Assembly (NCBI GenBank): GCA_030621515.1
Contig: JAUXHN010000016.1
Location: 1 to 37,580, forward strand
Direction of reading: 5' to 3'
Length of the DNA stretch: 37,580 bases
Source of the DNA: Deltaproteobacteria bacterium
Lineage (GTDB): Bacteria > Myxococcota_A > Polyangia > JAAYKL01
A program made the position numbers and the translations under genes. The notes below the pieces were generated by a model. That model was given only the letters and a program-made list of their open reading frames with translations. It ran no database searches and had not been told where the DNA came from. The first letter of the stretch is position 1. The number at the start of each line of letters is the position of its first letter. Of the stretch, positions 8,047 to 35,832 are shown in pieces.

Positions 8047-8688
8047 ATGGATGTCCGGCTTCGCAGACACATCGGCAGAGAAGAGTTCGACTACCCGGCG
8101 CTCATGGCGGCGCTTGGGGGGTATGCGAACGCGAGTGTAAAGGTCACGTCGCTCCTGCGAAAGGGCGTCATCGTTCGCGTGAAAAAGGGCATTTACGTAT
8201 TCGGTGAGGATTACCGACTCCGCCCCTATTCCCGAGAACTCCTGGCCAACCTGGTCTACGGCCCCTCTTTCCTCTCCCTGGATTACGCCCTCTCCTACCA
8301 TGGCCTCATCCCCGAACGCGTTGAGCAGGTGACTTCGGTGACTACTGGACGCGCCAGGGAGTTCAAGACCCCGGTGGGCACCTTCGTATACCGCCGCGCG
8401 CCCCGGGGCTCCTTCCATCTCGGCATGAACCGGGTCGAACAGGGGGAGGTTTCCTTCCTTATTGCGTCTTCAGAGAGGGCTCTCGCTGACAAGGTGAGGG
8501 AGGACAGGTCGGCAAGCGTGCGCTCCCTGGCTGACGCCGAGAACTACCTTTTCGACGATCTCCGCGTGGACGAATCGACTTTTCTGGAACTTGACCCCGG
8601 ATTCCTTCATCAACTCGCCGATGCGCTCGGCTCCCGCAAGGTCGCCTTCTGCGCGAAGCTCTTGCACAAGATCAGGGGGAGACAATGA
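8047..8688 (+). CDS. abiEi: AbiEi-type antitoxin / autorepressor (type IV TA)
   Basis: A 213-residue protein. The N-terminal part (residues 1-60) is a winged-helix-like DNA-binding region with the sequence VTSLLRKGVIVRVKKGIYVF, usual for AbiEi antitoxins. It is followed by the LSLDYALSYHGLIPE region and the C-terminal domain that counteracts the toxin. Family knowledge: AbiEi represses the operon and antagonises AbiEii without stable toxin binding (type IV), and such pairs can give abortive infection against phage. The chosen ATG has almost no ribosome binding site and lies about 10 bases after the predicted transcription start. The open frame upstream overlaps the activase gene and is not coding. 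The stop overlaps the toxin start by 4 bases (ATGA). The palindrome over the promoter supports autoregulation. Confidence 0.82.
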   Translation: MDVRLRRHIGREEFDYPALMAALGGYANASVKVTSLLRKGVIVRVKKGIYVFGEDYRLRPYSRELLANLVYGPSFLSLDYALSYHGLIPERVEQVTSVTTGRAREFKTPVGTFVYRRAPRGSFHLGMNRVEQGEVSFLIASSERALADKVREDRSASVRSLADAENYLFDDLRVDESTFLELDPGFLHQLADALGSRKVAFCAKLLHKIRGRQ

Positions 8689-9548
8689 ACCCGGCACTTG
8701 CGGATATGCTTGCAAAGTACCCTCGAAGAAGCGCAGATGAGAACATCAACGCCCTTCGTGAAGTTCTTCAGGAGATAGCCCTGCTCGGCCTCTGGCGCGG
8801 GAAGTTCTTCGAAAATGCAGCCTTCTACGGCGGCACGGCGCTTCGCATCCTCTATGGGCTGGACCGCTTCAGCGAGGACATGGACTTCTCCACGCTCTCC
8901 CCAGACGACTCCTTCAACCTTGAGCGATACCACCCCTACGTGGAAAAGGAGCTCTCCTCCTGGGGTTTCACGGTCAAGATAGAAACAAAAAAAAAGTCTA
9001 CCCGAAGCGCCATCGAGTCCGCGTTCTTGAAAGCGAATACGAGAGAGCAGCTTCTGATCATAGAGGCCGGCGATCAGGTCGCCGCCGGCGTCCCTCCCAA
9101 TCAGGTGCTCAAGATCAAGTTTGAAGTCGATACGGACCCGCCACCAGATTTCGACACCGAGACCAGATTCTGCCTACAACCTATCCCCTTCTCGGTGCGC
9201 GCTTACACACCTCCCTGCCTCTTTGCCGGGAAGATGCACGCGCTTCTCTGCCGTAGCTGGAAAAGCAGGGTCAAGGGCAGGGACTGGTACGACTTCGTGT
9301 GGCACGTCGGGCGCGGTACGGAACTCGATTTGCACCACCTCGAGACCCGCATGCGCCGCAGTGGCCACTACTCCGAGGAGGAGACCCTCAGGAAAGACAG
9401 GTTCGAAGAGATCTTGATGGAGAAAATAGCCTCGCTGAACGTGGACAGGGCCAGGGCTGACGTTGCGAGGTTTCTCCCCGACACGTCCCTGGTAGAGATC
9501 TGGTCGCGGGACTTCTTCATGGCCGTGGCAAAGAAGGTGAAGGTTTAG
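8685..9548 (+). CDS. abiEii: AbiEii-type nucleotidyltransferase toxin
   Basis: A 287-residue protein of the AbiEii/MenT (DUF1814) nucleotidyltransferase family. The core motif is complete: GGTALR at 49-54, then RFSEDMDFS at 61-69, giving catalytic acidic residues D65 and D67. Later conserved blocks are also present: KIKFEVDTDPP, LFAGKMHALLCR with its lysine, and KGRDWYDFVWH near the end. Family knowledge: these toxins transfer nucleotides to targets, in some members to tRNA acceptor ends. A strong AGGGGGA site precedes the ATG, which overlaps the antitoxin stop by 4 bases; toxin synthesis is therefore probably coupled to antitoxin translation. All catalytic motifs look intact, so the toxin should be active. 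A hairpin lies about 50 bases after the stop, without a T run. Confidence 0.88.
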   Translation: MNPALADMLAKYPRRSADENINALREVLQEIALLGLWRGKFFENAAFYGGTALRILYGLDRFSEDMDFSTLSPDDSFNLERYHPYVEKELSSWGFTVKIETKKKSTRSAIESAFLKANTREQLLIIEAGDQVAAGVPPNQVLKIKFEVDTDPPPDFDTETRFCLQPIPFSVRAYTPPCLFAGKMHALLCRSWKSRVKGRDWYDFVWHVGRGTELDLHHLETRMRRSGHYSEEETLRKDRFEEILMEKIASLNVDRARADVARFLPDTSLVEIWSRDFFMAVAKKVKV

Positions 9549-9676: not shown

Positions 9677-11446
9677 ATGACCGAAGTGAAAATCAGAGTC
9701 CTCGACCGCATCGTCGCCGATCAAATAGCCGCCGGGGAGGTGGTGGAACGCCCCGCGTCGGTCGTCAAGGAGCTACTCGAAAACAGCATCGACGCCGGCT
9801 CCACCCGCATCCAGGTGGAGGTGGACGGTGGCGGATCGATCCGCATCCGTGTCCTGGACAATGGGTTCGGGCTCACCTCTGACGAGCTCGAGCTGGCGTT
9901 CACAAGGCACGCCACCAGCAAGATATCCTCCATCGACGATCTCGAAAAGGTGGTCACCTTCGGATTTAGGGGCGAGGCTCTCCCGTCCATCGCTTCCGTC
10001 TCGCAAGTAACGGTTCAGACGCGAATAGCCGACGCGGTGGAGGGACACCGGCTGGTCATGAAGGGAGGCGAGGTGATCGAGCGCAGGGAGGTGGGATGTC
10101 CGCAGGGCACCGACTTCGAGGTAGCCAATCTCTTCTTCAACACACCCGCGCGGCTCAAGTTTCTCAAGAGGGAGAGCACCGAGACGGGACACTGCGCCGA
10201 AGCGCTGGTCAGACTGGCCCTGGTCAGACCGGAGGTCTCGTTCACCATGATCTCCAACGGCCGCAAGACCAGGGAGTTGGTCCGCGTGGAGAACCCACAG
10301 GAGCGGGTCGCCGCCCTTTTTCCGGACGAAGCACTCGCGGTGGCTCAGGGCTCGCACGGCGGGGTCGACGTCAAGGCGATCCTCGGTCCTCCCGAGCGCG
10401 CAAGGGCGGGAGCCGGCTCACTGTATACCTACGTCAACGGTCGCTTTATCCGCGACAGGACCCTCCTCAAGGCCGTAACCGGAGCATTCGCGGGCACACT
10501 GGATCCGGGCCGGTACCCGGTGGGATTCATCGCCCTTACCGTGCCGCCGCAGGCCTTCGACGTAAATGTTCATCCACAGAAGATCGAGGTTCGATTCGCC
10601 GATCGAAACGCGGTGTTTCGCGCCGTAACGCGAATAGTGGGGGAGATGGCCGCACGATCGGTGTGGGCGCTCGGCGAGGCGCCTGTTCACGAAAAACCCG
10701 GGAGCGGCCCAAATAAAATCTCCGAGAGCAAGGAGGACACATACGGGGAGATCCCGGCCGGAAGGTTCGTACCGCCGCCATCCCACCGGCCCGTCGGAGG
10801 TCCAGTGCCGACAACTCCAGCACAGACGCAGATGACGCCCGTCGCCCAGGATCCCGGCGCCGGTCGTTTTTCGTCCATGAGGTACATCGGCCAGGCCCGA
10901 GGCATGTTTCTCCTGCTGGAGGACGATCGAGATCTCGTCGTGATCGATCAACACGCCGCTCACGAACGCGTCACCTACGAACGCCTGAAGAGCCAGCTGG
11001 AGTCCGGTCGGATCTCGTCTCAACGCCTCCTGGCCCCGCATATGATCGACCTTGGTCCCTCACAGGCCGAGCGGATCGCCGGTTACGAGGAGAGGCTCAA
11101 GGATCTCGGACTCGAGGTGTCCCGCGCCGGTCCGGACAGGATCGCCATTCGCGCGGTCCCCGCCGAGATCTCCGGAACGTCGCCTGACAGACTCTTGGCT
11201 GATCTTGTCATCGCCCTCGAGGAAGGACGGAACGACTCGCGGGGAACCACGCAGGAGCTTGTTCTGGCGACGATGGCCTGTCACGGCTCCATCCGGGCTG
11301 GAAGGATCATCCAGGACGACGAGGTGACGGCTCTCCTTCGGGAAATGGACCGAGTCGATTTTGCCGGTCATTGTCCACACGGCCGACCTGTCCTGACACG
11401 CCTCAAATGGTCGGATCTCGAGCGTAGGGTCGGGCGGGATCGGTGA
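9677..11446 (+). CDS. mutL: DNA mismatch repair endonuclease MutL
   Basis: A 589-residue MutL. It couples mismatch recognition by MutS to strand incision. The N-terminal GHKL ATPase is complete: KELLENSIDAG with base E32, LDNGFG, TRHATSKI and GFRGEALPSIASV. A variable linker covers about residues 335-405, and the C-terminal dimerisation/endonuclease domain follows. The metal motif D424-Q-H-A, as DQHAAHERVTYE, fits the DQHA(X)2E(X)4E signature of nicking MutL proteins. ACHGSIRAG and GHCPHGRP near the end are the other active-site blocks. This form is expected in organisms without MutH. Translation starts at the ATG at 9677 after GAGG; the upstream open frame has no homology. The stop overlaps the GTG start of miaA, an arrangement (mutL-miaA) also seen in many proteobacteria. 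Confidence 0.96.
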   Translation: MTEVKIRVLDRIVADQIAAGEVVERPASVVKELLENSIDAGSTRIQVEVDGGGSIRIRVLDNGFGLTSDELELAFTRHATSKISSIDDLEKVVTFGFRGEALPSIASVSQVTVQTRIADAVEGHRLVMKGGEVIERREVGCPQGTDFEVANLFFNTPARLKFLKRESTETGHCAEALVRLALVRPEVSFTMISNGRKTRELVRVENPQERVAALFPDEALAVAQGSHGGVDVKAILGPPERARAGAGSLYTYVNGRFIRDRTLLKAVTGAFAGTLDPGRYPVGFIALTVPPQAFDVNVHPQKIEVRFADRNAVFRAVTRIVGEMAARSVWALGEAPVHEKPGSGPNKISESKEDTYGEIPAGRFVPPPSHRPVGGPVPTTPAQTQMTPVAQDPGAGRFSSMRYIGQARGMFLLLEDDRDLVVIDQHAAHERVTYERLKSQLESGRISSQRLLAPHMIDLGPSQAERIAGYEERLKDLGLEVSRAGPDRIAIRAVPAEISGTSPDRLLADLVIALEEGRNDSRGTTQELVLATMACHGSIRAGRIIQDDEVTALLREMDRVDFAGHCPHGRPVLTRLKWSDLERRVGRDR

Positions 11447-12390
11447 CCGACGAACACCCAAATGCCCCCACACCGATCTTCGTGATCGCCGGGCCCACCG
11501 CCACGGGCAAGACCGATCTTGCCGTCGCGGCGGCGCAAGCTCTCGACGCGGAGATCGTGGGCGCAGACTCCATGCAGGTCTACCGGCGTATGAACATCGG
11601 CACGGCAACGCCGACTCTGGACGAACTGCGGGGTACCCCCCACCACATGATCGATGTCGTGAACCCGGATGAAACCTACGACGTCGCCACATACATTGCA
11701 CAGGCGGACAAGGTTATTGCCCGGATCGCGGCAGGGGGCAGGCGCGTTCTTCTCGTCGGTGGAACGGGACTGTATATCAGGGTACTGCTGCATGGGCTGC
11801 AGGCGGGTCCACCACCCGATCCGGATCTTCGCGACGAGATCACAGCGAAGGCAAACGAGCTGGGATGGCCCTCGCTGCACATGGAGCTCGCCGACCTGGA
11901 TCCGAGGACGGCCCGGAGGCTTCACCCCAACGACGGGGTGAGGATCCTGAGAGCCCTCGAGGTGGTCCGGCAAAGCGGCGTGCCAATCTCCAAGTGGCAG
12001 GATGATCACGCATTCGAAGAGGACCGCTACCCGACCGCTATCGTGGGTCTCGACCAACCGAAGGAGTTGCTCCACTCCAGGATCGACAGCCGGGTGGACG
12101 GGATGATTCGAGACGGCTTTGCCTCGGAGGTCGAGAGCCTTATCGATGCCGGTTATCCACCAACTCTCAAACCCATGCAAGCGCTCGGATACAAGCGGAT
12201 GTGCGAATATATTGCAGGGGATCTGTCCATGGGCGAAGCCATAGAAAAGACAAAAACCGATACTCGACGCCTGGCGCGGCGGCAACGAAAATGGTTCAAT
12301 CGCGAGCCCGGTCTCGAGTGGATCGATCCAACAGCAATCAAGATCATCGAGGCCGCTGCTGATTTCTTCGACAAGGCGGAGGCGAAATGA
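11443..12390 (+). CDS. miaA: tRNA dimethylallyltransferase
   Basis: A 315-residue MiaA, which transfers a dimethylallyl group to N6 of adenosine 37 in tRNAs that read codons starting with U. The P-loop GPTATGKT is at residues 17-24. It is followed by the DSMQVYRRMNIGTATP substrate block, the GGTGLYIRVLLHG motif and the C-terminal RRLARRQRKWF tRNA-contact region. The length is normal for the family. The start is GTG at 11443, overlapping the mutL stop (GTGA), with a purine-rich GGGCGGGA just upstream; no in-frame ATG near the N-terminus would preserve the P-loop. The stop overlaps the start of the next gene by 4 bases, so translation of the three genes is probably coupled. Confidence 0.96.
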   Translation: MTDEHPNAPTPIFVIAGPTATGKTDLAVAAAQALDAEIVGADSMQVYRRMNIGTATPTLDELRGTPHHMIDVVNPDETYDVATYIAQADKVIARIAAGGRRVLLVGGTGLYIRVLLHGLQAGPPPDPDLRDEITAKANELGWPSLHMELADLDPRTARRLHPNDGVRILRALEVVRQSGVPISKWQDDHAFEEDRYPTAIVGLDQPKELLHSRIDSRVDGMIRDGFASEVESLIDAGYPPTLKPMQALGYKRMCEYIAGDLSMGEAIEKTKTDTRRLARRQRKWFNREPGLEWIDPTAIKIIEAAADFFDKAEAK

Positions 12391-14339
12391 AGATCGATTC
12401 ATCAGGCGCACGGTCTCTGATCGTCGCCGGGCTCATGGCGCTACTCGCCGCCTGCGGCTCAGAAAAGGAACCGTCGAAATCATCCACCATGGAGGAGGGT
12501 CCGGATCCGAAGCGATATGCTGTGGACGCTCCGATCGACGCGCCCTCCATCGGTCCACCGGACGCCGAGGTGACCGTGGTCTGTTTCTCGGATTTTCAGG
12601 CAACAAAAGGAGCCAGGAACGCCCGTTCCTTAAGAAAGATCGCGAAGAAGTTCGGGGACGCGGTGAGGATAGTCTACCGGGCGAACCCTCTTCCAAAGCA
12701 TCCGGACACCCACAGAGCTGAGGCTGCGGCCCGTGCCGCCCATCGTCAAGGCAAATTCTGGGGGTTTCACGACGCCCTGTTCGAGCGCCCGGAGATCCGG
12801 GAGATCGATCTTCTCGCGGCCGCCAAAAAGGCGGGTTGCGATATAGACAGGCTCTTGAAGGACATGGACGATCCACGGCTGATGGAGCAAGCGGCAGCGG
12901 ATCGGCAGGCGGCCCTGGAGATCGGAATCGACAACGCCCCGTTCAATTTCGTCAACGGTAGACCGCTTGGTCCCGTACGCTTCCCCGAAGATGCCTACTC
13001 CCTTGTAAATGACGAAATACGCCGGGCGAAATCGCTGGTAGCCGGTGGCAAGGCGAAGAAAGACGTTTACGAAACGCTCATCGCCGGCGCGAAGAAGCAT
13101 CTTCCCAGAACTCGAAACCCGAGACACAAGTTGCTCGATCCGAACACCCGATACCGGATCCCGATCTCGCCGGACGACCCGGTCATCGGACCTTCCGATG
13201 CGCCACTGACGGTGGCCGTCTTCATTGATTTCGAAAGCCCTTTTTGCGCGCGCAACTACCGCGCCATAGCAAGGTTGCCCGGGGAGTTGGCTCCGGATGT
13301 GCGCGTGGTAATCAAGCATTTCCCCCAACCTTCCCATCCGAGCGCGGATATTGCGGCGCAGGCGTCACTGGAGGCACAGGCGCAGGGTCTCTTCTGGGAG
13401 TATTGCAAGGCGGTCTTCGAAAACTGGGATGGGCTCGACAGGGAAAAGGTTCTGGAAGCCGCAAGGATCGCCGGTATGGACATGAACGCCCTGCAGGCTG
13501 CTCTCTCGGATGGACGTCACTCCGTGCGCGTCGAACGCGACAGGAAGCTGGCCGCCTCACTGGATCTCAAGGGAACACCGTACTTCTTTTTCAATGGAAT
13601 CATGCGAAGGGGTTCCCGCTCTTTTGACCAGCTTGTTGCCCTGTCCCTGCCCCGGATCCGGCACGCTTCGCAACTGCTTCCTCTGGACGGCGGTCCCGGT
13701 GATCTCTACGCCAGGATCATCGAGAATGGCGCCACCGAGCCTGTTTATCAGGAACCCGGATCCACCCCTTACGATCCGGAGATCGTGAGCGACGGGAAGC
13801 ACCGAGTGTACCACCTCGATCTACCGGACGACACACCCATGCTCGGATCCTCGGATGCTCCGGTCACCGTAGTGGAGTTCGGTGACTATCAATGCGGCGC
13901 TTGCGCCCGGGCCTCAGCCCTGCTCGAGAGGATTCGTAAAAGCTACCGGAACCGTGTAAGGATCGCCTACATCCACTACCCGTTACCGGGCCATGAACAC
14001 GCCTTCGTTGCTGCACAGGCAGCAGTCGAGGCGGCCGAACAGGGACGTTTCTGGGATTTTCACGAGGTTCTGATGGACAACCAGGGAAACCTGTCGCATG
14101 AGAACCTGATCGCCCTGGCCGGTAACAATGGACTTGATGCCGACAAGATGAGGATCGCGCTCGATCAGGAACTGCATGCGAATAGCGTAAGGAAACACCG
14201 GAAGCTCGCTCGCTCGCTGAAGCTCACCGGAACACCCTCGTTATTCGTGAACGGAAGAAAAGTCGGTGCTTCCCGCACGGAAACGGAACTGATTGCCCTG
14301 GTGGAAGAAATGCTCGCATTGCACGGCGATAAAAAGTGA
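12387..14339 (+). CDS. Lipoprotein with three tandem DsbA-like thioredoxin folds
   Basis: A 650-residue predicted lipoprotein (signal peptide ending LLAAC, lipidated C23) with three thioredoxin/DsbA-like units at about 55-205, 265-425 and 485-645. Each keeps the family fold landmarks, including the cis-proline loop (NAPFNFVNG with P185, GTPYFFFNG with P398, GTPSLFVNG with P617) and the helical insert. Only the third unit has a CXXC active site (C503-G-A-C506, FGDYQCGACARA). The second has SPFC with the single cysteine C287. The first has QATK with no cysteine. Unit three is therefore the likely redox-active oxidoreductase or isomerase in the periplasm, and the others may bind substrate or act as scaffolds. 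The ATG overlaps the miaA stop (ATGA). Its role in this operon is not known. The function of unit three is well supported by motif; the role of the triplication is inference. Confidence 0.85.
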   Translation: MKIDSSGARSLIVAGLMALLAACGSEKEPSKSSTMEEGPDPKRYAVDAPIDAPSIGPPDAEVTVVCFSDFQATKGARNARSLRKIAKKFGDAVRIVYRANPLPKHPDTHRAEAAARAAHRQGKFWGFHDALFERPEIREIDLLAAAKKAGCDIDRLLKDMDDPRLMEQAAADRQAALEIGIDNAPFNFVNGRPLGPVRFPEDAYSLVNDEIRRAKSLVAGGKAKKDVYETLIAGAKKHLPRTRNPRHKLLDPNTRYRIPISPDDPVIGPSDAPLTVAVFIDFESPFCARNYRAIARLPGELAPDVRVVIKHFPQPSHPSADIAAQASLEAQAQGLFWEYCKAVFENWDGLDREKVLEAARIAGMDMNALQAALSDGRHSVRVERDRKLAASLDLKGTPYFFFNGIMRRGSRSFDQLVALSLPRIRHASQLLPLDGGPGDLYARIIENGATEPVYQEPGSTPYDPEIVSDGKHRVYHLDLPDDTPMLGSSDAPVTVVEFGDYQCGACARASALLERIRKSYRNRVRIAYIHYPLPGHEHAFVAAQAAVEAAEQGRFWDFHEVLMDNQGNLSHENLIALAGNNGLDADKMRIALDQELHANSVRKHRKLARSLKLTGTPSLFVNGRKVGASRTETELIALVEEMLALHGDKK

Positions 14340-14342
14340 CTT

Positions 14343-14386
14343 TCCAGGAGGATTTTGCCACGGGCGTTGAATCAAAATTTCCTGGA
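14343..14386 (+). other. Inverted repeat between the triple-DsbA and AblB-like genes
   Basis: TCCAGGA-GG-ATTTT (14343-14356) is mirrored by AAAAT-T-TCCTGGA (14374-14386) around a 17-base loop. No T run follows, so it is not a classic terminator. It may protect mRNA or separate expression of the two neighbours. Confidence 0.5.
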
Positions 14387-14409
14387 TGGTAGTATGCCGC
14401 CCTTTCGAA

Positions 14410-14422
14410 CTCCTCAAAGGAG
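14410..14422 (+). promoter_or_regulatory. Small hairpin covering a ribosome binding site
   Basis: CTCCT (14410-14414) can pair with AGGAG (14418-14422) over a 3-base loop. AGGAG is part of the AAGGAGGG ribosome binding site of the gene starting at 14434. The CTCCT arm could also pair with AGGAGG at 14346-14351 in the upstream inverted repeat, giving two exclusive states. Regulation is only a possibility. Confidence 0.35.
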
Positions 14423-14433
14423 GGTTTTCATCG

Positions 14434-15387
14434 ATGGCCGAACGAAAAAAGAACAATATCAACCAGCTTTCAACGCGAATGGTTCGCAACAACGACATAT
14501 TCTGTTGCCTGTTGATCAACCAGGGTAACAAGTCGATCAGAGTGATTGATTTTCGCGGTGGCAATTTCCAGCTGAAGCACAATTACCTGGAGCGAATCCT
14601 TCTGGCCGACGGAATGCGCAAGATCTTCACCCTTATCGAACGCGACGATATGAGCGGCTGGAGCCGCGTCGGTTACCACAGGGAAGGAACCATTCCAGGC
14701 TACTACAAGAGGTCCGACGCCTACATAATGGCCCGGATCTATGACGATGATTGGGAGGGAATTCGCGATATCGAGGACCAACCGGAAAGAAAGAACATCC
14801 TCAACGAGGCAAAGATTCTGGGCAATGATCTCACCAATCTCAAGGCCTCCGGGCTCAAGGCCGAGCACGTGGCAGCAGAGGAGATCTCCGGTCTCCTCAA
14901 GAACGAGTTTGCGCGCCTGACAAAAAAGGCTTCAAGGGCCAAGAAGACCAAGAGCGCAAAGACAACGGGCAGCAAGGAAGCCAAGAAAACGTCTTTCAGC
15001 CAGGTCATCGAAGATCCGGTATTCCCCCAGTTCAGCAGGGAAACGGACAACCATTTCTTCATCTGCAGCAACCGTCGCACAAAACAGATCAACCTCTTCG
15101 GCGCCGAGTATCAGGGGTGCTTCGGAAACGCGAAGATGGACCTCTTTTTCAAGCCCAAATCAAGGACCGATCTCGCCATCGCCCGACACGGCCTCAATTC
15201 GTTCATCGACTGGCTCGAGGTCATCGGCGCCGTTGCGATCTTCTCACTCGTCCGAGCGGACGATCTTGAGACCAACGCCCTTTTCTTCAGCGCCGGCTTT
15301 CGCAACAGCGGCTGGATGCACCGCCAGCTGATTACCAGAGAGGGGCCGGTAGATCAGATCCTCTGGACCAAGAAGCTCACTGTATGA
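14434..15387 (+). CDS. AblB-like GNAT-fold protein (beta-lysine acetyltransferase relative)
   Basis: A 317-residue protein whose two ends resemble AblB, the acetyltransferase that makes the osmolyte N-epsilon-acetyl-beta-lysine. Residues 50-95 include RVGYHREGTIPGYYKRSDAY, which fits the AblB N-terminal block GY..E..IP..Y....D.Y. Residues 270-317 include LVRADDLETNALFFSAGF, fitting the final GNAT strand and helix. Between them is a Lys/Ala/Thr-rich linker (about 170-200). The acetyl-CoA loop, usually R-G-x-G-x-A, reads SRTDLA here, so catalysis is doubtful. No lysine 2,3-aminomutase (ablA) is nearby. The ATG at 14434 was chosen for the strong AAGGAGGG site; a longer frame from 14386 has none. 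The stop overlaps the next gene (ATGA). The alternative is a non-catalytic or different GNAT protein. Confidence 0.55.
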   Translation: MAERKKNNINQLSTRMVRNNDIFCCLLINQGNKSIRVIDFRGGNFQLKHNYLERILLADGMRKIFTLIERDDMSGWSRVGYHREGTIPGYYKRSDAYIMARIYDDDWEGIRDIEDQPERKNILNEAKILGNDLTNLKASGLKAEHVAAEEISGLLKNEFARLTKKASRAKKTKSAKTTGSKEAKKTSFSQVIEDPVFPQFSRETDNHFFICSNRRTKQINLFGAEYQGCFGNAKMDLFFKPKSRTDLAIARHGLNSFIDWLEVIGAVAIFSLVRADDLETNALFFSAGFRNSGWMHRQLITREGPVDQILWTKKLTV

Positions 15388-20226: not shown

Positions 20227-21348
20227 ATGAAAACCAAAAACACTTTCCGGATAATTGCAATCTCACTTCTCCTGATCTGGCTCGCACAACTCGGCAGTTG
20301 CGCGAACACCACCATCGTCCCGGGCGTTCCCGATTCCGATTCTGATTCCGATGGGGATTCGGATTCGGACGGCGACACGGACTCCGACACCGACTCGGAC
20401 TCCGACACCGACACGGACTCCGACACCGACTCGGATTCGGACACCTCCGTGGACGAATGCGAAGAGGAACTCGATGATTGCGACGATAACGCCACCTGCA
20501 CCGATCTGCCGGATGGCTTCGAGTGCGAATGCAACAGCGGATACGATGGGGACGGCCTGATCTGTGACGACATCGACGAATGCCTCACTACTCCGTGCGC
20601 CACCAACGCCGAGTGCACCAACACGGACGGCGACTACGATTGCGCTTGCCTGACCGGCTACGACGGCGATCCCTACAGTACCATTTGCGACGACATCGAT
20701 GAATGCTCGTTGGGAACCGACCTGTGCGACGTCAACGCCACTTGCACCAACACAGACGGCGACTACTACTGCACCTGCAACTCGGGCTACTCGGGGGACG
20801 GCTTCACTTGCGTTGTGTCGTCCCTGCTGGAGGATTTCGAAACCGGGACATGGCCATGGTCACCATGGGTAACGGTAGACACCGGCGGCACGGTCAGTTC
20901 ATCTTACGCCCACGATGGGTCGAGGGGCATCTTCAACCCGGGCTGGCACTACCGGACTGATGTCACATTCGGAACGACAACCGGGCAGACATTATCTGTG
21001 TGGGCAAGACCGGACAGCGGCACCAGCGGCCGGTTCTACTTCGGTTTCAGCGCGAGCAGCTCCGGCTGCCGGTCGATAATCCTGGCGCCCAACACGACGC
21101 AATTCTTTTTCCAGACCAATACGAGTTGGGGCTACACGGCACAAACAAGTGTTTCACAGAGCTACACCGGCGGAACCTGGTACTACATCGAGCTTGAATA
21201 CATGGGCGGCGGTCAGTACCAGGGCAGGCTCTATAGTTCCACAATGACTCTCCTCAACACCGTGACCCACAATTTCGGGACTGCCAGCCCGGGCGGAATA
21301 GCCATCCGCGCCTTCAACGGTGTCTCCATCGACAGCATTTCGATGTAG
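20227..21348 (+). CDS. EGF-domain lipoprotein with Asp-repeat spacer
   Basis: A 373-residue predicted surface lipoprotein. The signal peptide ends at LGSC (C25). Residues 36-72 are an almost pure Asp spacer alternating with Ser, Thr or Gly. Three EGF-like domains follow at about 76-113, 115-154 and 156-195, each with six cysteines. The second and third begin with the DIDEC calcium-binding signature and have the CTNTDGDY core. The last ~170 residues (EDFETGTWPWSPW, WYYIELEYMGGGQYQG) look like a jelly-roll/laminin-G-like binding domain. The role is probably adhesion or ligand binding; the ligand is unknown. The gene has a clear promoter but no leader or ribosome binding site. A GC-rich hairpin terminator follows the stop. 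Confidence 0.85.
   Translation: MKTKNTFRIIAISLLLIWLAQLGSCANTTIVPGVPDSDSDSDGDSDSDGDTDSDTDSDSDTDTDSDTDSDSDTSVDECEEELDDCDDNATCTDLPDGFECECNSGYDGDGLICDDIDECLTTPCATNAECTNTDGDYDCACLTGYDGDPYSTICDDIDECSLGTDLCDVNATCTNTDGDYYCTCNSGYSGDGFTCVVSSLLEDFETGTWPWSPWVTVDTGGTVSSSYAHDGSRGIFNPGWHYRTDVTFGTTTGQTLSVWARPDSGTSGRFYFGFSASSSGCRSIILAPNTTQFFFQTNTSWGYTAQTSVSQSYTGGTWYYIELEYMGGGQYQGRLYSSTMTLLNTVTHNFGTASPGGIAIRAFNGVSIDSISM
20332..20442 (+). repeat. Asp-codon minisatellite in the EGF lipoprotein gene
   Basis: A 111-base low-complexity stretch made of GAY codons alternating with TCN, ACN or GGN codons (6-base period). Slippage at such repeats could change the spacer length between strains. Confidence 0.8.
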
Positions 21349-34176: not shown

Positions 34177-35832
34177 ATGATAATCTCTCTTGCAAGGTAT
34201 GCCCGATATCTGCTGACACTGGCGCTCGCAGCGAGCATCCACTTCGGAGCCGGTTGCAACTCCAAGAGCAACAACCAGCCCGACGGATCGGTCGACGGCG
34301 GCGCTGACGCAGGCATCGATACAACCTGCGAGGATGGGTTGCCCCCCACCCCCTTCGATAGCAGCGCAACGATAACTGCCTACGACCAGCCCGCGCCCGA
34401 CTTCACTGTGAACACCACCGACGGCGAATGGACCCTGTCGGAGCACTGGACCGGTTGCGACAACTACGTGTTCGTAATGTACAACTCGGGCTACGTGACC
34501 GGCGCTGACCAGCTCTGGGCGTCGAGCGTCGCCGAGATCATCGACGACAGCGCCTCCAATACCCACTACTTCTTCGTCACCCTGGAGACCGGGCTCGCCG
34601 CCGAGGATCGAGAGGCGCGGGTGCTCGAAGTTTGCGACAAGATTCAGGCCCACCTGGAAACCACCGATCAGGCCACCAGAGACCACTGGGCCGATCGGAT
34701 GCACTACGTCACCGACCCCGGACGCGACATCCCGATGGTGGACGGCGTGCTGGATGTCTACGCGGGCGAGGTGCACTTCACCATCGATCGCAAGCAGCTG
34801 GTACGAGAGGGCCACAACACTTCCTATTTCACCGGATCCTCCTGGGTGCCCCAGTTCGGTAACACGCGCTACTGGGCCCGCTACTACAACTCCCAGTACT
34901 TGCTCGACAAGCAGCTCGAGGACCAGGAGGCGGGTGAAGACATGCTGGTGCACCGGGTGGCCGACAGGGAAGACATCGCGGGCAGCGAACCCTTCAACTG
35001 GACCCTCCCGGACGCCGCCACCATCGCCGGGTACGAGAAGCTCGAGATCGACATGCACGTGGACTGCCCCGGGGCGGGGCACCCCTACGGCTCAACCTGC
35101 GGCGAGTGGGACACAGTGGGTAGCCTGTGGCTTTGCGCCGACGATGATTGCACCGCCGAGACCCGGCGCAGGATAGTGAAGTGGATAACCCCATACAGCT
35201 CACCGGGGCGCTGGGTAATCGACATCACGCCGGAGCTGGTGCATCTGGCCGCAGGCGGAGAGCTGCGCTTCATGGCGCAACACGGAGACAACACCGTCGG
35301 CCCGTACACCTACAAATACACGGTCGACTTCCGCTTCCTCAAGGCGGAAGACGGCCTCAGACCCTTCGCCATCGAGCCCATGATTCCCATGGCCAATTAC
35401 CCGTTCGCCGACATGGCCGACGCCTTCGATCCATTCGTCATCACGCCCCCCTCGGGGGCCCAGAAGGTAGAGCTGTATGCCCGGATCTCCGGTCACGGAG
35501 CCGTGCCCCCCAGCGGCTGCGCCGAGTTCTGCACTTTCGAGCACACCTTCGACGTCAACGGCACCGACTACCAGCACGTCTACCTGAAGGAGAACGAAAA
35601 CCGTTGCGCAGAGTGGGTGGAGCTGGGCGTAACCCCTAACCAGGGAGGCACCTGGCACTTTGACCGCTCCTCGTGGTGCCCCGGATGGACCATTGAGGAA
35701 TGGCGGGAGGATCTCACGGAGAGCTTCGATCTCGGCGGCGCCAACACAATCAATCACATCCCCACGTACCTGTCGGGGGACCCGCCGGGCGGCAATATGG
35801 ACGCCCGCGTGGAGCTCGTCTTCTATCAGTAA
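34177..35832 (+). CDS. PNGase F-related lipoprotein with thioredoxin-like N-domain
   Basis: A 551-residue predicted lipoprotein: signal peptide ending FGAGC (C27), then an Asp/Gly spacer. Residues 68-215 resemble a redoxin/thioredoxin-like fold (APDFTVNTTDGEWTLSEHW) with no catalytic cysteine pair. Residues 270-550 match peptide:N-glycosidase F, which releases N-glycans from glycoproteins: TCGEWDTVG, WITPYSSPGRWVIDIT, YTVDFRF, GCAEFC, GGTWHFDRSSWCPG. By comparison with Elizabethkingia PNGase F, D60 is D312 and E206 is E450, both kept; E118 is replaced by Q368. The enzyme may thus have low or altered activity. GGAGGATATG lies before the ATG, and TATAAA at 34147-34152 may be a -10 box. Direct repeats flank the gene. 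Confidence 0.85.
   Translation: MIISLARYARYLLTLALAASIHFGAGCNSKSNNQPDGSVDGGADAGIDTTCEDGLPPTPFDSSATITAYDQPAPDFTVNTTDGEWTLSEHWTGCDNYVFVMYNSGYVTGADQLWASSVAEIIDDSASNTHYFFVTLETGLAAEDREARVLEVCDKIQAHLETTDQATRDHWADRMHYVTDPGRDIPMVDGVLDVYAGEVHFTIDRKQLVREGHNTSYFTGSSWVPQFGNTRYWARYYNSQYLLDKQLEDQEAGEDMLVHRVADREDIAGSEPFNWTLPDAATIAGYEKLEIDMHVDCPGAGHPYGSTCGEWDTVGSLWLCADDDCTAETRRRIVKWITPYSSPGRWVIDITPELVHLAAGGELRFMAQHGDNTVGPYTYKYTVDFRFLKAEDGLRPFAIEPMIPMANYPFADMADAFDPFVITPPSGAQKVELYARISGHGAVPPSGCAEFCTFEHTFDVNGTDYQHVYLKENENRCAEWVELGVTPNQGGTWHFDRSSWCPGWTIEEWREDLTESFDLGGANTINHIPTYLSGDPPGGNMDARVELVFYQ

Follow-up and report, generated by a model that had tools for sequence, protein, structure and literature searches.

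A lipoprotein with three DsbA-type units and a single CxxC site, and its possible PDI-like division of labour

The window, a stretch of 37,580 nucleotides, was found to encode a lipoprotein of 650 amino acids (12387-14339, + strand) in which three DsbA-type units follow one another in a single chain and only the last carries a CxxC active site. The reading preferred here is that of an envelope-tethered, PDI-like disulfide enzyme with one redox unit and two substrate-binding units, to which a probability of about 0.5 is given. A chain that joins catalytic with non-catalytic thioredoxin units is a design best known from eukaryotic PDIs.

The whole protein was matched in Pfam by Thioredoxin_4 (7e-50) and DSBA (1.4e-46), each over three stretches, and when the thirds were scanned singly all of them exceeded the Pfam gathering score, with 42 bits for unit 1, 54-60 bits for unit 2 and 74-82 bits for unit 3. 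The AlphaFold2 model, for which 32 three-unit arrays formed the input alignment, had a mean pLDDT of 87.7 and showed three complete units of the order beta-alpha-beta / helical insertion / beta-beta-alpha; as the pTM was 0.45, the model speaks for the folds of the units and not for their relative placement. The top solved-structure matches obtained with Foldseek were single-domain DsbA proteins (BdbD, target TM 0.84). By both the Pfam cut-offs and the model, the DsbA-type thioredoxin fold of the DsbA / BdbD-type oxidoreductases (PF01323, PF13462) is present in all three units, as had been proposed in an earlier, sequence-only reading of this DNA, and unit 3 shares with these enzymes the CxxC motif and the cis-proline. 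The protein differs from them in being a single lipoprotein chain with three units, two of which are without the N-terminal active-site cysteine.

Unit 1 spans residues 42-207 (12510..13007, + strand), unit 2 residues 254-417 (13146..13637, + strand) and unit 3 residues 473-643 (13803..14315, + strand). The first linker (AKSLVAGGKAKKDVYETLIAGAKK; 13008..13145, + strand) is helical in the model and gave an HMM match of 33 bits to the linkers of arrays with intact active sites, while the second (YARIIENGATEP; 13638..13802, + strand) scored 25.0 bits against linker 2 of the intact arrays and 10.7 bits against their linker 1.

In the register of the HMM the active sites are ATKG at residues 72-75, SPFC at 284-287 and CGAC at 503-506. 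The sequence-only reading had given them as QATK, SPFC and CGAC; the last two stand, whereas the first was shifted by one residue, as the glutamine precedes the first cysteine position, just as it does in the Q-CGAC of unit 3. A CxxC motif is therefore found in unit 3 and is absent from units 1 and 2, in agreement with the earlier claim that only the last unit could be a dithiol site. The cis-proline loop before beta 3 was also correctly recognized in all three units, reading AP, TP and TP in the window protein, TP, PP and TP in the second genome of the genus (G001) and AP, TP and TP in the third (G002). Seven cysteines are common to the three genomes, namely C23, C66, C151, C287, C340, C503 and C506. 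CGAC was seen in no other unit among the arrays whose sites were listed, so unit 3 may likewise be an atypical DsbA. The possibility that selenocysteine occupies the decayed sites, or any others, was rejected because the fetched loci have no in-frame TGA in their active-site columns.

The chain begins with a signal peptide (12387..12455, + strand) that ends in the lipobox LAAC, with C23 as the lipid-accepting cysteine and glycine at position +2, and these features are kept in both other genomes of the genus. The lipobox named in the earlier reading is thereby confirmed. From the +2 glycine, read by the Escherichia coli Lol rule, the protein is predicted to be an outer-membrane lipoprotein on the periplasmic face. 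The reported overlap with miaA (IPP transferase; 11443..12390, + strand) is also real, the miaA stop codon and the ATG of the array sharing the four bases ATGA, and the identical overlap occurs in G001 and G002.

This form of the array was found in three genomes of a single genus, which are all those sampled for it, and the active sites of the other two read ATKG / SPFC / CGAC (G001) and AAKG / SPFC / CGAC (G002). In unit 1 pairwise dN/dS (Nei-Gojobori) was 0.13-0.19, similar to the 0.14-0.22 of unit 3, and in unit 2 it was 0.23-0.35, these being ranges from three related pairs compared without a significance test. Since the values for units 1 and 2 are low, the dead units are not drifting freely or decaying passively, and the purifying selection that keeps them fits binding or scaffold roles. 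The dN/dS values reveal that units 1 and 2 are constrained; they do not reveal the purpose of the constraint. The earlier proposal of two scaffold or substrate-binding units beside one redox domain is thus upheld as regards two non-catalytic units under purifying selection, with which the proposed role would be compatible.

In the preferred reading the lipoprotein would display three DsbA modules on helical linkers at the predicted periplasmic face of the outer membrane. Dithiol chemistry would be possible only at the CGAC of the C-terminal module, the probable redox unit. Units 1 and 2, which appear to have lost the nucleophilic cysteine and kept the fold and the cis-proline loop, would most likely hold unfolded or thiol-containing substrates for unit 3, by analogy with the b and b' domains of PDI. 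Binding by non-catalytic thioredoxin domains is established for the PDIs (PMC7687155). PDI, ERp57 and PDIR likewise mix catalytic and non-catalytic thioredoxin-fold units in one chain; the window protein differs in being bacterial and in having DsbA-type units with a helical insertion, and it did not qualify as a member of the PDI family itself. The genome contains one VKOR match, which shares a frame of 404 amino acids (C177) with a DsbA match and lies 5' of it, and two DsbD_TM genes, so that electron donors and acceptors exist for a periplasmic redox unit; DsbB gave no match in the genome.

The array has relatives across the class. A search of 59 related genomes, together with loci fetched from it and from a neighbouring-gene search, yielded 85 proteins that carry 2-4 DsbA units in tandem; they belong to 19 families, among them that of the window (f1). 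Outside the genus CxxC is kept in 223 of 226 scored units, usually as CPFC, and in 80 of 82 proteins every site is intact, although these are not random frequencies as the sample followed best matches and loci of the neighbouring GNAT-like gene. Partial loss of sites was seen elsewhere in CPFS/CPFS/CPHC (G040, an independent loss in another family; L129:9199-11469), CPFC/CPFS (G050), CPFT/CPFC/CPFC (L040) and SEVC/CPYC (L042). Because the sites are intact in nearly all arrays outside the genus, the local oddity is the loss of active sites, which is rare in the class, and not the tandem design, which is common there. The orthologue survey suggested by the sequence-only reading, in which intact CxxC motifs in all units were to count against it, found such proteins among the related arrays of other families and none inside the genus; with these intact relatives the array as such is no longer odd, and loss from an intact ancestor is supported. 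No paper on tandem DsbA proteins was found in a full-text literature search that misses most subscription journals. At three loci (L198, L218 and L201) two or three genes for tandem DsbA proteins, in membrane-anchored and lipoprotein forms, follow one another in an operon-like arrangement 5' of the GNAT-like gene.

That gene (14386-15387, + strand) follows the array in the window, and in several families it likewise comes immediately after a tandem DsbA array. Its product matched no Pfam family, the nearest NCBIfam model was beta-lysine N-acetyltransferase (47 bits against a cut-off of 205), and its predicted structure (pLDDT 84.5) resembles GNAT acetyltransferases. The gene is present in 128 of 241 genomes of the class at about one copy per genome. 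At 26 of the 47 loci examined a tandem DsbA protein was encoded on the same strand no more than 2.5 kb upstream, and the 23 of these that lie outside the genus span families f14, f22, f25, f27, f29 and f30. With several DsbA units, helical linkers and a gene that precedes the GNAT-like gene in the same orientation, the window protein fits the class-wide pattern. What the sequence-only reading had called an unexpected place for an envelope thiol enzyme is partly accounted for, as arrays precede the same gene in six other families and the window's family has that gene in its mutL-miaA operon. The recurrent pairing of the GNAT-like gene with DsbA arrays is an unexplained lead. It may be proposed, tentatively and with considerable doubt, that the class possesses a PDI-like system of its own, in which single chains of 2-4 DsbA units in the periplasm are coupled to the Pfam-less GNAT-like family, and that one genus has specialized its array so that one unit is catalytic and two bind clients. 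Intact arrays in most families, set against an array in one genus that is two-thirds dead and yet constrained, provide a natural series for probing what non-catalytic units do.

Transitional decay was weighed as an alternative, in which this family is losing an array of three active units, the first two being relics that head for deletion and stay folded only as a stable neighbour for unit 3. The other sampled genera of the family keep the GNAT-like gene and no DsbA array was found beside it in them, one such locus (G009) ending at a contig end; in G011 and G004 the GNAT-like gene comes immediately after miaA, and in G005 the two are separated by the gene of a transpeptidase-domain protein. 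These array-less loci and the very long stem of the genus on the array tree (2.75 changes per column) speak for decay, but the constraint on unit 1 is as strong as that on unit 3, the cis-proline loops and linkers are conserved, and the GNAT tree nests the genus within array-less genera, so that the route would need several separate losses. Decay is accordingly considered unlikely. The nesting requires either several losses or one regain; because a single regain within the genus is also compatible with the tree, the array-less genera were not accepted as simple losses.

Shared ancestry with the intact arrays is likely, the preference of linker 2 for its counterpart favouring a junction that is common to both. 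The unit-specific HMMs did not assign unit 3 of the window to the unit 3 profile. In the domain trees the stems were long, the three units of the genus were not placed, and a single clade of its nine units was not rejected (p-AU 0.92), for which reasons these trees were set aside for dating a triplication. The earlier account of triplication followed by stepwise loss therefore survives in part: loss from an intact ancestor is supported, whereas a stepwise order is not, all three members of the genus being in the same state with no intermediate found, and a local triplication is unproven given the class-wide arrays, the unplaced units and the match of linker 2.

Beside the PDI-like reading, it is also conceivable, if improbable, that the catalytic pairs gave way to putative disulfides with a structural or regulatory role, C66-C151 for unit 1 and C287-C340 for unit 2, which would make the array a redox-gated scaffold. 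Both dead units contain precisely two cysteines, which the three genomes share, the columns of C66, C151 and C340 are mostly E, L and H respectively in 29 other arrays, and membrane-anchored intact arrays are mostly without cysteine beyond their CxxC sites. Against this, three extra cysteines in 650 residues are not improbable, and C287 is merely the former second active-site cysteine.

There is little to recommend the idea that the protein is a single-chain counterpart of the trimeric ScsC-type isomerases, with three DsbA units acting as a disulfide isomerase for which one site suffices in this genus. In its favour, PmScsC, whose isomerase activity requires trimerisation (PMC5524982), was among the structural matches, and ScsC likewise has three DsbA catalytic domains per molecule; there, however, the three come from trimerised one-domain chains, and with one active unit in the window protein the logic of several cooperating sites is lost. 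A UGGT-like folding sensor, in which tandem DsbA folds (as in UGGT TRXL1-4, not used for redox chemistry) detect misfolded proteins, is very improbable, for although Foldseek matches to UGGT cover >500 columns (E 4e-9) and the whole protein exceeds the cut-off of the UGGT domain PF18403 (28.6 against 27.4 bits), the structures superpose poorly (rmsd about 26 Å), that cut-off is not reached by the intact array L163, PF18403 is not among the matches of 4-unit arrays, unit 3 keeps its CxxC, and the UGGT domains, unlike those of the window protein, are discontinuous with an altered topology (PMC7687155). UGGT homology was rejected, the likeness being at the level of the fold only.

The best NCBIfam match of the window protein was NF041057, the Rcas_1661 family thioredoxin-like (seleno)lipoprotein, a model of 247 positions that matched over three stretches with 142.5 bits, under its cut-off of 190, while the intact arrays L163 and L158 are above it. 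Several other genes of the window were noted. An AbiEii nucleotidyl transferase of a type IV toxin-antitoxin family (8685-9548) lies directly upstream of mutL and is found in G002 too. The gene at 20227-21348 encodes three EGF-like domains together with a weak laminin G match; its product is a possible disulfide-rich client, and the presence of such cargo near the array speaks for the PDI-like reading. The product of 34177-35832 has a match to the PNGase F C-terminal domain (PF09113).
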